Of a stretch of 64,000 bases of DNA, positions 9,739 to 49,350 are shown in pieces. Under the pieces are notes generated by a model that ran no database searches, was not told where the DNA came from, and saw nothing but the letters and a program-made list of their open reading frames with translations. Origin of the DNA: Cyanobacteriota bacterium. Lineage in GTDB: Bacteria; Acidobacteriota; Vicinamibacteria; Vicinamibacterales; UBA2999. The translations under genes were made by a program, and so were the position numbers. Position 1 is the first letter of the stretch. Each line of letters begins with the position of its first letter. The stretch is taken from assembly GCA_019752015.1 (NCBI GenBank), contig JAIEMQ010000072.1, forward strand, positions 1 to 64,000, in the 5' to 3' direction.

Positions 9739-9799
9739 GGGGCGAACCAAAGTTCGCCCCTACAAGTCTGCGCAGGCGGAACTAAAGTTCCGCCTCTAC
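9739..9799. repeat. Two adjacent 9-bp-arm palindromes of one dispersed family
   Basis: GGGGCGAAC/CAAA/GTTCGCCCC (9739-9760) and AGGCGGAAC/TAAA/GTTCCGCCT (9774-9795) are each perfect, and each is followed by a (C)TAC tail. A double copy of the same design occurs inside the MFS gene at 23461-23510. Confidence 0.85.
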
Positions 9800-10965
9800 G
9801 AAATCATGATCTTCCTCGGATGTTGCGAGTTGTCCTCGAGGAACGTCTTCTTGCTCTCGATCTCCTCCGACGTCGGCTGCACCATGCCGTTCACGTCGGT
9901 GACGCGCGACACCAGCGTGTGCTCGCCGGCGGGCGCGTTCTTCCACGTGTAGTGATACAGCTTCCACCCGTACTTCGCGGTGGTCGCCGGATCGGCGGTG
10001 GCGGCCATCCACGGGCCGTCATCGACCTTCACCTCGACGGACTTTACCGGCGTGCCGTCGTTCAGCACGATCATCGTCAGCTTGTGATCGGCGCCGTTCT
10101 TGGTGACGCGCGCGACGAACGACTTCAGGTTGAGATGGCTGACGGCCTTTTCGACCCACTTCACTTCGCCGTTGATCATCTCGCCGCGCAGCGTGCGGTA
10201 CCAGTTCGCCTGGAACTTGCCGAGGTACGGCTCTTCCTGCACGTGGATGTCCGACAGCCACTTCACGTTCGGCGCGCCGTACCAGCCCGGCATGATCAAA
10301 CGAAGCGGAGCGCCCTGGTGCTTGGTGAGCGGCTCGCCGTTCAGCGCGTAGGCGAGGAACGGCGCGCGATCGCTCGACAGCGCCTGGTCGCGCTGGATGC
10401 TGCGGCCGTACTGCTGCTCGACGTCGTAGTTGGTGCCGCGGAAGTTGACGCTCTCCTTGCCGCGATCGGCGCCGAAGAACACAATCTCGCGCGCGTTCGA
10501 CTTGAGGCCGGCCTTGTCGAGCACGGTCTTGAGCGGCACGCCCGTCCACCGGCCGTTGCCAATCAAGCCCTGAATCGGACGACGGTTGCCCGAGCACTCG
10601 AAGCCGTTGATGAGCTCCGCGTTGCCCATCTTCTTCAACTCGTCGAGGGACAACGCCAGCGACGTGTTGACGAAACCGCCGACCTTCAGCCGGAACGCCA
10701 CCGGATCCACCTCGGGGTGGCCGTAATGCTGCGTCGTGAAGAACTGATCCTTCGGCGTGAACGGCGTGGTCAGGTTGCGCGTGTCGAACATGCGGCGATC
10801 GGGAGCCGGGTTCGGATTGAACGGCGGGTTCACGTGCGAGTCGGTGAACGGCACCATCACCTCGCCCTGCGCCATGGCGGGGAGGATCCAGTCGAAATCA
10901 GCGGCGGCCGCGAGGGCGGCGGCGGAAAGACCCGTTTTGATTGCGTCGCGGCGATTCATGGTCAT
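9796..10965 (-). CDS. Sulfite-oxidase-family molybdopterin enzyme (SorA/SoxC-like), exported
   Basis: This is a 389-residue protein of the sulfite oxidase family, which oxidises sulfite or related oxyanions using a Mo-pterin cofactor in the periplasm. The N-terminus (MNRRDAIKTGLSAAALAAA) fits a twin-arginine signal. The Mo-ligating cysteine is Cys124 in GFECSGNRRPIQG. Further family features are RWTGVPLKTVLDKAG and HQGAPLRLIMPGWYG. A C-terminal Mo-co dimerisation domain begins near residue 275 and includes VKSVEVKVDDGPW and YTWKNAPAGEHTLVSRVTD. An AGAGGA ribosome binding site precedes ATG 10965. It starts 1 bp after the selenoprotein stop, so the two are coupled. No cytochrome c partner gene is adjacent. 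Confidence 0.88.
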   Translation of the reverse strand: MTMNRRDAIKTGLSAAALAAAADFDWILPAMAQGEVMVPFTDSHVNPPFNPNPAPDRRMFDTRNLTTPFTPKDQFFTTQHYGHPEVDPVAFRLKVGGFVNTSLALSLDELKKMGNAELINGFECSGNRRPIQGLIGNGRWTGVPLKTVLDKAGLKSNAREIVFFGADRGKESVNFRGTNYDVEQQYGRSIQRDQALSSDRAPFLAYALNGEPLTKHQGAPLRLIMPGWYGAPNVKWLSDIHVQEEPYLGKFQANWYRTLRGEMINGEVKWVEKAVSHLNLKSFVARVTKNGADHKLTMIVLNDGTPVKSVEVKVDDGPWMAATADPATTAKYGWKLYHYTWKNAPAGEHTLVSRVTDVNGMVQPTSEEIESKKTFLEDNSQHPRKIMIS

Positions 10966-10966
10966 A

Positions 10967-12424
10967 TCAGTTCCTCTGGGACTTCAAAGTCTCTATGTAC
11001 CAAGTGACTCTGTCAACGGCATCACCGTGCGGCTCGACGCCGGTGAATTGATAGCGAATCGTCCCCGTCGCATCGACATAAAACGTCGTCGGCGTGTCGT
11101 GAACGTTGAACACCTTCGCCGCCTGCTCGCGCGAATAGCGCGCGACGGGCATCGCAAACTTGCGCTCGGCCACATAGCGATCCAGCCGCGCCGGATCGTC
11201 ATCAAGGCTAATCAGGAAGAACCTGACCTTCGGATCGCCCTGATACTTCTCGTAGGCCTTCTGGATGAGCGGTAACTCCGCCCGGCAGGCCCCTCACCAG
11301 GCGCTGAAGAAATTCAGCAGCACCACGTTGCCGCGCTCGGCGCGGAGGTCGACGTCGTTGCCCTGAAGATCTTTCAGCACCAATGCCGGCACCCTGCGGT
11401 CGGCCATGCTGCTCACGAGCGCCTTACGGCGCTCTTCGCGCTTCCGTTCGAGCGTGGCGGCCAGCCACTTTTCGAAGTCGGCGGGATTCTCGCCGTTCTT
11501 CGCCTGCACCTCGGCAAGCGCGGCCTTGGCCTGATCGCGCTGCGGCGGCGTGATGCCGGCCAGGCCGAGCGCGGTCAGATAGTGCTCGCGCGCCGTCTCG
11601 AGATCGTTCTTCTTGCGCGACAGCTCGGCGAGGTGCAGCTGGTTGGTCGCATCGACATTGCGATAGAGGCGCGCCGCTTCGGCGAGGCGCTTCTCGGCGG
11701 CCGCGAGATCGCCCTGCAGATACAACGCCCAGCCAGCGATGTCCGCGAACACCGCGGCATTGCGATCGAGCGACCCGCGCACCTTGCCATCGAGCTTGTA
11801 GCTGCTCTCGTTCTCCCAGATGAACCGATCGCCGGCCACGCGGCCCTCGGCGGCGAGCCGCAGCACGAACGGCAGATCACTGTTGCGCGCGAGCAGCAGA
11901 TTGGCGCCGGCGATATACGACATCGGATCGGGACGCAGCTTGATGCGCACGTCGATCGCATTCCGAATCGCCGACGCCGATGCCTGCGGACTGGCTTGCA
12001 GTTTCGCAATCGCCGCGTCGGCGGCCTTCACCGAATTCTCGAGACCGTTGGCTTCGAGAATCCACTCCGGCTTCGGCTCACCCGCGGCCTCGAACTCAGC
12101 CTCGGCGCGCGGACGATACGACACTTCCTCGTGGAAGCCGGGGAACGCGCCTTCGGCCTTGTTGCCCTTGAAGTCGTAGATGCGGCCGAGCCAGAAATGC
12201 GCCTGCGCAGCCGTGGCAGGAATCCTGGTGGCGGCGATCAGCTTCTGTTCCGCCGATTTCGTTCGCATCGCGAACCAATCAGCTTTTCCTTGTTCGAGAA
12301 GTGATTGTTCTCTGGCGGTCTGTGCGGAGAGAAAGGCAAAGGGCAGAAGGCAAAAGGCAAAAGTAAAGGCCTTAAACCATTTCCTTCTGCCTTCTGCCTT
12401 TCGCCTTCTGCCTTTTGCAGGCAT
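10967..12424 (-). CDS. TlpA-like thioredoxin-fold selenoprotein (UGA at the CxxC)
   Basis: Read through the TGA at 11294-11296, this is one 485-residue exported protein. A signal peptide (KWFKAFTFAFCLLPFAFLSA) precedes a TPR-like helical region (about 40-330). A C-terminal TlpA/ResA thioredoxin domain follows, with VLKDLQGNDVDLRAERGNVV, then VLLNFFSAW-U-GAC, then cis-Pro HDTPTTFYVDATG. The TGA replaces exactly the first Cys of the CxxC, as residue 377. After it, 108 codons stay open and conserved to the next stop, 1 bp before the sulfite-oxidase-like gene. A bSECIS-like hairpin follows the TGA. Selenocysteine is therefore far likelier than truncation. The expected role is periplasmic disulfide or peroxide redox chemistry. 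The first residues (MPAKGRRRKAEGRR) come from a DNA repeat, so the exact start is uncertain. Confidence 0.85.
11267..11283 (-). promoter_or_regulatory. Candidate bacterial SECIS hairpin
   Basis: On the transcript GGGCGG pairs with CCGCUC (one G-U) around the loop AGUUA. The loop begins 16 nt after the UGA, with a G in its first two positions. These match the usual bacterial SECIS limits (short apical loop, roughly 16-37 nt from UGA). It supports recoding of UGA to selenocysteine. Confidence 0.6.
12332..12421. repeat. Inverted arrays of the 7-bp TTCTGCC repeat
   Basis: The left arm (AAAGGCAAAGGGCAGAAGGC and onward) and right arm (TTCTGCC, TTCTGCC, TTTCGCC, TTCTGCC, TTTTGCA) are mutually complementary. 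The arrays span the start of the selenoprotein gene and encode part of its N-terminus. The same 7-mer recurs three times at 49330-49350. Confidence 0.75.
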
Positions 12425-12427
12425 TTC

Positions 12428-14263
12428 CTAGCAAGTCACGCAGCGATTGTTGTTCTTCGCACCGAGCTTGGTCAGCAGCTCGATGGTCTCCGGAATCGCC
12501 GAGAGGCGCTGCACCGGGCCGTTCGCCATGTCGACGGTGGTCTGGCCGCTGCGCGCCACGGCTTTCACGTCGGCGCCCTTGCTCACGAGATACAGGATCA
12601 TCGCGTTGTCGCCGCGGGCCGCCGCGTGATGGAGCGGCGTGTAGCCGTCGTTGTCGCGCATGTTGACGTCGGCGCCGAGCTCTTCGACGAGATACTTCAT
12701 CACGCTGAGCCACGCGTCCGGGGCGTGACGATGGGCGTTGCCGGCGAAGCCTTCGCCGTACTCGACGCCGGCGGCGGCGTGAATCGCGAATGCGCCGGGA
12801 CCACCGTAGGGAATCGGCGGCGCGTCGTATTTCTCCATGCCCGCTCCAGCGGTCGGCGTGACGGCGCCGCCGGCGCCCTGCGGCTGTCCGCCCGGGGCGT
12901 CGCCGCCGCGGCGAATCTGCGCGCGGGGAGCGGTGGTCGGAATCTCAGGATCGGCGCCGTAGGCGACGAGCAGCTTCATCGCCATCAGGTCGGTGCCGTA
13001 GGCCGCGCGCCAGAACGCCGTCGATCCGGTCGTGTCGGCGAGACCGCAGTTGCGATTGCCGCAGCCCGTGTAAACGAGGTACCACGGGTGCGAGCTGATG
13101 CGGTGATTGACGTCGGCGCCCTTGTCGAGCAGCGCCTTCATCACTTCCAGATAGGTGTGCTTCTGCAGCTCCATCTGCTGGGGCTGCGGGAAGCGCGTGC
13201 GCGGCTGCCACGCGGTGTTGACGGCGGCCCACAGCGGCGTCACGCCGTTGTTGCTCGCGGCGAGATTGACGTTGGCGCCGCGCTCGATCAGGAACATCGC
13301 CATGTCGAACTCACCGTTGATCACGGCGGTGAGCAGCGGGCTGGTGTTGTCGCCCTTCTGCACGACGTTGATGTCCGCGCCGCCGTCCAGCAGCGCCTTC
13401 GCCGCTTCGATATAGCCCTGGCGCGCCGCGTGGAGCAGCGCGGTCATGCCGCCCTTGCTCGAGACCGGCGGATTGATCTCTTCGGGATTGAAGCCGCGCG
13501 GCGGCGGCGCGTTCGGATCCGGCGGCGGAATCTTGCCGGACTTCAAGAGCTCGCGCGACGCTTCGATCGCCGCCTGCATCTGCGCCGGCGACGGCCGCGC
13601 GTTCGAGTCCTTGCCGATGAAGCCTTCGATCACCTTGCGCTGGCGCTCGACGGCCGCGCGATCGAGCTGCCCCTGCTTGCTGACGTCGATCACTTTGGTC
13701 GAGACGTTCGGATCGGCGCCGCGCTTGATCAACGCCGCGATCGCCTCGGGGCGGTTCCATGACGCCGCGAAGATCAGCGGCGTCTGTTCCCATTCAGCTT
13801 CCTTCGCGTTGACGTCGGCCTTGGCGTCGGCGAGGAGGTTGATCACCTCCGCGCTGCCCGACAACGCGGCGAGATGGATCGGCGTCGCGCCGCTCGGATT
13901 CGCCCTGGCGTTGACGTCGGCGCCGGCCTCGATGATCGCCCTGGCGACGGCGGGGCTCGCCGATTTCGCGGCGAGGTGCAGCGGCGTGTAGAGGCCGATG
14001 CGCGTCACCGCCGAGACGTTGGCGCCCGCGACGATCAGCAGCTGCGCGAGCTCGGCATCGCCGCGCTCCGCGGCCCAGTGCAGCGCTGTCATGCCGTCGC
14101 CCTGCGGCACGCCGATGTCGGCGCCGTCCTTGAGCAGCTGTTTGACGGCGTCCTTGTCGCCCTTCATCGCCGCATCCGCGAGCGGCGAGGTCGACTGGGC
14201 CGCGCCCAGCGTTGCTCCGAGGAACAACGCCACAACAACGTTAGTCAGTAATCGACGCGTCAT
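12428..14263 (-). CDS. Secreted ankyrin-repeat protein
   Basis: This is a 611-residue protein with a signal peptide (RRLLTNVVVALFLGATLGAAQ) followed by about ten ankyrin repeats. Examples are DGMTALHWAAERGDAELAQL, TPLHLAAKSASPAVARAIIE, TPIHLAALSGSAEVINLL and YTPLHHAAARGDNAMILYLV. Two proline- and glycine-rich linkers (about 220-260 and 425-450) interrupt the solenoid. Ankyrin arrays bind proteins; the periplasmic partner is unknown but may be one of the co-encoded DUF1592/DUF1552 proteins. The start is preceded by a GGGGGAG ribosome binding site. Only 3 bp separate its stop from the selenoprotein start, placing both in one operon. Confidence 0.92.
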   Translation of the reverse strand: MTRRLLTNVVVALFLGATLGAAQSTSPLADAAMKGDKDAVKQLLKDGADIGVPQGDGMTALHWAAERGDAELAQLLIVAGANVSAVTRIGLYTPLHLAAKSASPAVARAIIEAGADVNARANPSGATPIHLAALSGSAEVINLLADAKADVNAKEAEWEQTPLIFAASWNRPEAIAALIKRGADPNVSTKVIDVSKQGQLDRAAVERQRKVIEGFIGKDSNARPSPAQMQAAIEASRELLKSGKIPPPDPNAPPPRGFNPEEINPPVSSKGGMTALLHAARQGYIEAAKALLDGGADINVVQKGDNTSPLLTAVINGEFDMAMFLIERGANVNLAASNNGVTPLWAAVNTAWQPRTRFPQPQQMELQKHTYLEVMKALLDKGADVNHRISSHPWYLVYTGCGNRNCGLADTTGSTAFWRAAYGTDLMAMKLLVAYGADPEIPTTAPRAQIRRGGDAPGGQPQGAGGAVTPTAGAGMEKYDAPPIPYGGPGAFAIHAAAGVEYGEGFAGNAHRHAPDAWLSVMKYLVEELGADVNMRDNDGYTPLHHAAARGDNAMILYLVSKGADVKAVARSGQTTVDMANGPVQRLSAIPETIELLTKLGAKNNNRCVTC

Positions 14264-49329: not shown

Positions 49330-49350
49330 TTCTGCCTTCTGCCTTCTGCC
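49330..49350. repeat. Three tandem copies of TTCTGCC
   Basis: The 7-mer array lies between ActF and the small membrane protein start. It is the same unit as the larger inverted arrays at 12332-12421. Confidence 0.85.

Follow-up and report, generated by a model that had tools for sequence, protein, structure and literature searches.

A gene in the 64,000-nucleotide stretch of Acidobacteriota DNA analysed here (hereafter the window) very probably uses an in-frame TGA to encode selenocysteine (Sec) in a secreted protein of thioredoxin-like type, as judged from its sequence, its homologues and the coding capacity of its genome. That the product is a TlpA/ResA-like selenoprotein, made and acting by the Sec insertion and disulfide mechanism proposed below, can be held with good confidence on the same grounds. 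A sequence-only reading of the window had proposed a UxxC selenoprotein of the TlpA/ResA type, and this proposal has gained support from the Sec machinery, the homologues, a bacterial SECIS (bSECIS) hairpin and domain matches. The gene (Table 1) adds a selenoprotein family that falls below all NCBIfam cut-offs and whose protein is truncated at the active site by standard gene calling.

Table 1. Positions in the window of the predicted selenoprotein gene, its parts and its two neighbours.
Feature	Coordinates	Strand	Remarks
Predicted selenoprotein gene	10967..12424	(-)	Start ATG at 12424, terminal TGA 10969-10967; 485 residues, U = 377
In-frame TGA, residue 377, very probably read as Sec, position 1 of UxxC	11294..11296	(-)	TGA in 10/12 and TGC in 2/12 close members
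Cys380 codon, partner (resolving) Cys of UGAC	11285..11287	(-)	Invariant in 12/12 aligned proteins
Pro445 codon, conserved Pro of DTPTT	11090..11092	(-)	Invariant in 12/12
bSECIS hairpin	11267..11283	(-)	6-bp stem, AGTTA loop; GGGCGG / AGTTA / CCGCTC
Thioredoxin-fold domain (AhpC-TSA/Redoxin, ResA/TlpA-like), across the TGA	11051..11398	(-)	Pfam, NCBIfam and structure-sequence matches
Helical, TPR-like N-terminal region, residues ~36-340	11405..12319	(-)	Weak TPR_2; helices in low-confidence model
N-terminal basic and hydrophobic stretch, likely signal peptide	12320..12424	(-)	By eye; coded mostly by imperfect inverted repeat
SorA/SoxC-like molybdopterin enzyme, twin-Arg start (by eye)	9796..10965	(-)	1 bp downstream of the selenoprotein gene
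Ankyrin-repeat protein, upstream neighbour	12428..14263	(-)	Adjoins the molybdopterin enzyme in six genus genomes without the selenoprotein gene

Reading frame and gene neighbourhood

The 486-codon minus-strand frame from 12424 to 10967 is interrupted once, by the TGA at 11296-11294, where the standard reading ends an open reading frame (12424-11294, minus strand) of 376 amino acids. Read through, the frame continues after U377 for 108 more residues up to the terminal TGA at 10969-10967, and the next gene opens with an ATG (10965) after a spacer of 1 bp. The motif at the TGA is NFFSAW-U-GAC-RAELP, with DTPTTFYVD further downstream; from the thioredoxin fold, Pro445 is taken to be the cis-Pro. 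The reading frame thus bears out the earlier placement of the TGA at the first Cys of the thioredoxin motif (FFSAW-U-GAC), as well as the continuation through DTPTTFYVD to a stop directly ahead of the neighbouring gene.

In the window's genome and in two others (G277 and G453) the gene order is DUF1592, DUF1552, ankyrin, selenoprotein and SorA-like enzyme. This repeated order, together with the 1-bp spacing in the window, speaks for a selenoprotein dedicated to the assembly or repair of the adjacent sulfite-oxidase-like enzyme, or to electron transfer with it, much as the sequence-only reading had tied the two together. The tie does not extend across the family: the two genes adjoin in only 3/12 loci of the close members described below, and the other nine loci, of which 5-20 kb were read and several are cut by contig ends, gave no match at E ≤ 1e-10 to the enzyme or to the DUF1592, DUF1552 and ankyrin neighbours. 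Moreover, the enzyme is encoded in 38/43 genomes of the taxonomic family (E ≤ 1e-60), four of which have a selenoprotein match, and in six of the nine genus genomes the selenoprotein gene is absent and the ankyrin gene ends ~20-110 bp before the enzyme (in one of these six, G454, the contig carries just the final 30 residues of the ankyrin gene). Since the enzyme is widespread and the locus often lacks the selenoprotein gene, the adjacency says little about a joint function, and a dedicated partnership is accordingly considered unlikely. The preferred reading does not include the SorA-like neighbour in the definition of the family, although the two genes are perhaps co-transcribed in the window's genus. 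At this locus the selenoprotein gene is either an accessory insertion or has been repeatedly lost.

Selenocysteine machinery and the SECIS hairpin

The genome that contains the window (82 contigs, listed as 100% complete) encodes selA (541 bits), selB (341.9 bits including in-frame neighbours, against a cut-off of 242.25), selD (353 bits) and one tRNA-Sec that scores 61.2 bits, over the gathering score, and that ARAGORN identifies as SeC (anticodon TCA). All four of selA, selB, selC and selD, whose absence would have counted against Sec, are therefore present. Among chosen related genomes (those of the 11 other members and nine more), 20/20 have a tRNA-Sec above cut-off and 19 of them a selA above cut-off, the exception being G421, an 81% complete genome with a Cys version of the gene.

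The hairpin starts 10 nt, and its loop 16 nt, 3' of the TGA. According to the accessible text of PMC13188914, the bSECIS model calls for a loop of 3-9 nt whose first two positions include a G, a stem of 4-16 bp, a distance of 16-37 nt from the TGA and an MFE ≤ -7.5. The window's hairpin conforms to this model with a loop of 5 nt, a stem of 6 bp, a distance of 16 nt and -8.1 kcal/mol, its spacing and energy lying near the limits. When genes were scanned with the further demand that the loop G be followed by G or U, a bSECIS-type hairpin was found in 10/10 TGA genes, 0/2 Cys orthologues and 0/18 Cys homologues, against a background of 148/3336 upstream codon positions (4.4%) in the 12 genes; these counts are not independent events because the sequences are related. 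All stem cells are paired in the nine distinct rows formed by the ten TGA genes, with covariation confined to one pair (U-A in 6 rows, G-U in 3).

Codon usage around the hairpin is likewise distinctive. The codon right after Sec is GGG in 10/10 TGA genes versus GGC in 2/2 Cys orthologues, and the loop Leu codon is TTA or TTG in 10/10 versus CTG in 2/2. In the pooled genes Leu is most often encoded by CTG, with TTA plus TTG accounting for 54/486. At columns with an invariant residue, the 13 codons 3' of the TGA show a pairwise codon difference of 0.22 (7 columns), compared with 0.46 further downstream (26 columns); for the 100 codons 5' of the TGA it is 0.48 (23 columns). Comparison of folding energies with those of synonymous recodings gave p values of 0.04-0.76 over the ten TGA genes, not significant for most, and a 6-bp stem arises at the hairpin site by chance in ~4-7% of synonymous recodings per gene. 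Because the energy test was mostly non-significant, the case for a SECIS rests on the controlled model test and the codon signature. An Rfam search for SECIS elements gave no match, apart from one weak match on the other strand, far below threshold.

The UGA could also be read as something other than Sec, by a near-cognate Trp tRNA or by a Cys- or Ser-charged or unusual SelC-like tRNA, and the window's genome does contain seven sub-threshold tRNA-Sec-like matches (33.9-46.5 bits), which are taken to be ordinary long-arm tRNAs. Such decoding is very improbable in a genome that encodes SelA, SelB, SelD and an over-cut-off tRNA-Sec, in which SelD itself has a Sec TGA, and in a family where the SECIS accompanies TGA genes only. 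Nor is UGA generally reassigned, because the selenoprotein gene itself ends in a TGA stop.

Two further genes of the same genome are of note in this context. The in-frame TGA of selD (L067, G000:C19:36115-37035, plus strand) lies within SCAGUASK, and a second redox gene with an in-frame TGA (L066, G000:C43:2912-3280, minus strand) encodes a peroxiredoxin-like protein, secreted-looking by eye, with the motif AGUTAEC; the 48 nt directly 3' of this TGA fold into a stem-loop. The genome has ten AhpC-TSA matches, two of which, L066 among them, bear a TGA.

Family members and exchange of Sec and Cys

The window protein was searched against 396 genomes of the phylum, drawn evenly (E ≤ 1e-20), 162 genomes of the order and 38 genomes of the class of G203 (both E ≤ 1e-30); given these thresholds and the even draw, remote or partial members will have been missed. 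Twelve close members including the window's were retrieved, all with E ≤ 2e-89, and the 11 others share 38-72% identity with the window protein. Ten of the 12 have TGA and two, G408 (L048) and G421 (L053), have TGC. Cys occupies the Sec column in all 18 remoter homologues examined, namely 17 matches from the phylum search and L054 (G400, 3.8e-32), which was excluded from the close members and served as a Cys control. The homologues examined thus have either the TGA or Cys at residue 377, where the sequence-only reading had proposed to look for Sec or Cys, and in each of the 11 other close members and the 18 remoter homologues the frame continues past this codon. A single-protein search of genome contigs produced no relatives. 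An alignment-based search of the contigs produced 395, nine of the best 80 of which were already in the set; it used two patterns, one of which required Cys, so that its list leans against TGA.

This continuity bears on the possibility that the TGA is a true stop, leaving a 376-aa TPR-like protein with the downstream part unused or separately translated. The standard ORF reading does end there, and at least three loci (L056, L059 and L061) have an ORF of at least 100 aa that begins from a TTG a few codons past the TGA. That TTG, however, encodes the Leu within the SECIS loop, and the two Cys-bearing close members and 18/18 remoter homologues run through without interruption. In the known thioredoxin fold, and weakly in our model, the TGA falls between the central strand and the active-site helix, so that neither half would fold as the domain. 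A genuine stop is consequently even less probable than decoding as another amino acid.

For seven ortholog pairs, dN/dS is 0.11-0.46 after the TGA and 0.15-0.50 in the 150 codons before it; by this measure, purifying selection acts on the protein sequence encoded 3' of the TGA. The least probable reading, with a chance close to nil, is an ordinary CxxC protein altered by a recent nonsense mutation or by a sequencing or assembly error: TGA is one base from TGC and TGT and two of the 12 close members have the Cys version, but the identical TGA recurs in nine other genomes, one of another class, with the domain kept, selection has been maintained beyond it, and the hairpin tracks TGA and not Cys, in line with the earlier judgement that a nonsense mutation was unlikely.

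With Sec as the preferred reading, the phylogenetic tree gives some insight into the history of the codon. The TGA gene from another class (G203, L027/L058) groups with six f6 genes with support of 96/89, while a seventh f6 gene, the Cys version from G408, falls outside this group. Its placement among the order's f6 genes suggests acquisition of the G203 gene, with its SECIS, by horizontal transfer. Three Sec/Cys changes are required by the tree, and one gain with two losses or two gains with one loss both fit. The genomes of the two Cys orthologues keep tRNA-Sec, and G408 also keeps selA; selA above cut-off was not found in the 81%-complete G421. In G408 at least, Sec and Cys have thus been exchanged while the Sec trait was kept. 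Sec and Cys orthologues within one order, with SECIS presence to match, constitute a natural experiment, to which sister genomes that carry or lack the gene at a single locus add.

Architecture, proposed chemistry and described relatives

On the read-through protein, Pfam detects AhpC-TSA (2.9e-17, residues 343-458) and Redoxin (9e-16, residues 342-467). Among the best 60 of 122 matches to solved structures, the nearest by sequence is ResA (4nmu, E 9.1e-21), and the others are proteins of the ResA/TlpA/DsbE type and of the thioredoxin family. In the alignment with these relatives, U377 takes the place of the first Cys of CxxC, which in the thioredoxin fold is the exposed nucleophile. The sequence has the UxxC/CxxC motif and the conserved Pro of a thioredoxin-fold oxidoreductase. 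Every NCBIfam match listed stays below its curated cut-off, the best being ResA (75.5 bits against 170), with TlpA at 44 of 230 and dsbE at 47.9 of 123.15. A single-sequence AlphaFold model was poor (mean pLDDT 53.5). With regard to the TPR-TlpA fusion originally proposed, the TlpA-type domain stands, and the N-terminal part is better called TPR-like only, as TPR_2 scores 19.7 bits against a Pfam cut-off of 27.

The most likely function on these grounds would be periplasmic thiol-disulfide reduction with a selenolate nucleophile. A periplasmic reductase is favoured because of the ResA relatives, the alignment of U377, the invariant Cys380, the signal-like N-terminus and the one DsbD_TM protein (126.6 bits) encoded in the window's genome; the direction of the reaction (reductase, oxidase or isomerase) and the client are read, by analogy, from the relatives. 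Peroxide chemistry, an alternative raised for the selenolate, was set aside as leading idea, the nearest relatives by sequence being thiol-disulfide reductases.

Briefly, SelB, held at the hairpin together with Sec-tRNA (anticodon UCA), would insert Sec at the UGA (11296-11294), after which the protein would be exported and its helical TPR-like region, presumably the partner-binding part, would hold the partner. The U377 selenolate would then attack a periplasmic client at a disulfide (or an oxidised thiol) to give a mixed selenyl-sulfide, which Cys380 would resolve to leave a U377-Cys380 bond for re-reduction by a DsbD-type membrane reductase. The advantage of Sec could lie in faster attack or in less irreversible oxidation of the enzyme. 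A more speculative extension, for which we see only a slim chance, is that selenium supply switches between the full-length reductase and the truncated 376-aa form as a client-binding scaffold, in an undescribed, horizontally mobile Acidobacteriota family that combines a TPR-like scaffold with a selenolate reductase; if true, the selenoprotein would be a selenium-gated chaperone/reductase switch.

Related selenoproteins have been reported previously, including a 'thiol-disulfide isomerase-like protein' with UXXC (4 sequences, PMC1088965), Trx-like 1 selenoproteins with UxxC (321, PMC2398784) and the UxxC entries for cd02966 and PF08534 (PMC13188914). As far as their descriptions in the accessible text go, the cd02966 and Trx-like 1 (COG0526) UxxC selenoproteins resemble the window protein in having Sec first in the CxxC of a TlpA/Trx-type domain with widespread Cys homologues, but no TPR-like N-terminal region is mentioned for them, the comparison being by description and not by sequence; the terms 'TPR' and 'tetratricopeptide' are absent from the main text of PMC13188914. 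The periplasmic reductases ResA, TlpA and CcmG (DsbE) have the domain and the CxxC position in common with the window protein, which differs in Sec for the first Cys, in a helical region of ~300 residues ahead of the domain and in scores below the equivalog and subfamily cut-offs. NF041054 (WAxxUGC_long) and the 'UGC-containing TlpA disulfide reductase family', as presented in the accessible part of PMC13188914, are likewise ResA/TlpA-like selenoproteins; the NF041054 motif is by name UGC (UxC), in contrast to UxxC in the window protein, which scores 41.1 bits against its cut-off of 300. The TlpA selenoprotein of PMC7539508 shares the name, yet it is algal and, from the text available, carries a hemerythrin metal-binding domain, 80% of the members of that family being Sec-containing.

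The original statement that such chemistry was not described holds at most for the TPR-like plus TlpA-Sec architecture, for which no report was found in the accessible literature on TlpA- and ResA-like selenoproteins, supplements aside; it does not hold for UxxC TlpA-like and Trx-like selenoproteins as such, which figure in the available text of PMC13188914 and PMC2398784. A search for selenoprotein literature on Vicinamibacter found none, and the portion of a 2006 survey available to us gives the Acidobacteria phylum three families and four selenoproteins (PMC1794560). A member of the present family may be among the UxxC entries of PMC1088965, PMC2398784 and PMC13188914, or among the candidate selenoproteins of a survey of >44,000 groundwater metagenome-assembled genomes that is cited in the accessible text of PMC13188914. 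A new family within the UxxC TlpA-like selenoproteins, set apart from the listed UxxC entries by their descriptions, is nevertheless well supported.

Most codons of the likely signal peptide lie at 12331-12418, where a GGCAGAAGGCAAAAGG-type motif forms an imperfect inverted repeat with 28-nt arms that are 86-89% complementary, and a further copy of the GGCAGAAGGCAAAAGG-type motif occurs at 49334-49349. The N-terminus of G277 is similar to this repeat-coded one and that of G453 differs; from these sequences, it seems that the signal peptide arose from a dispersed repeat.
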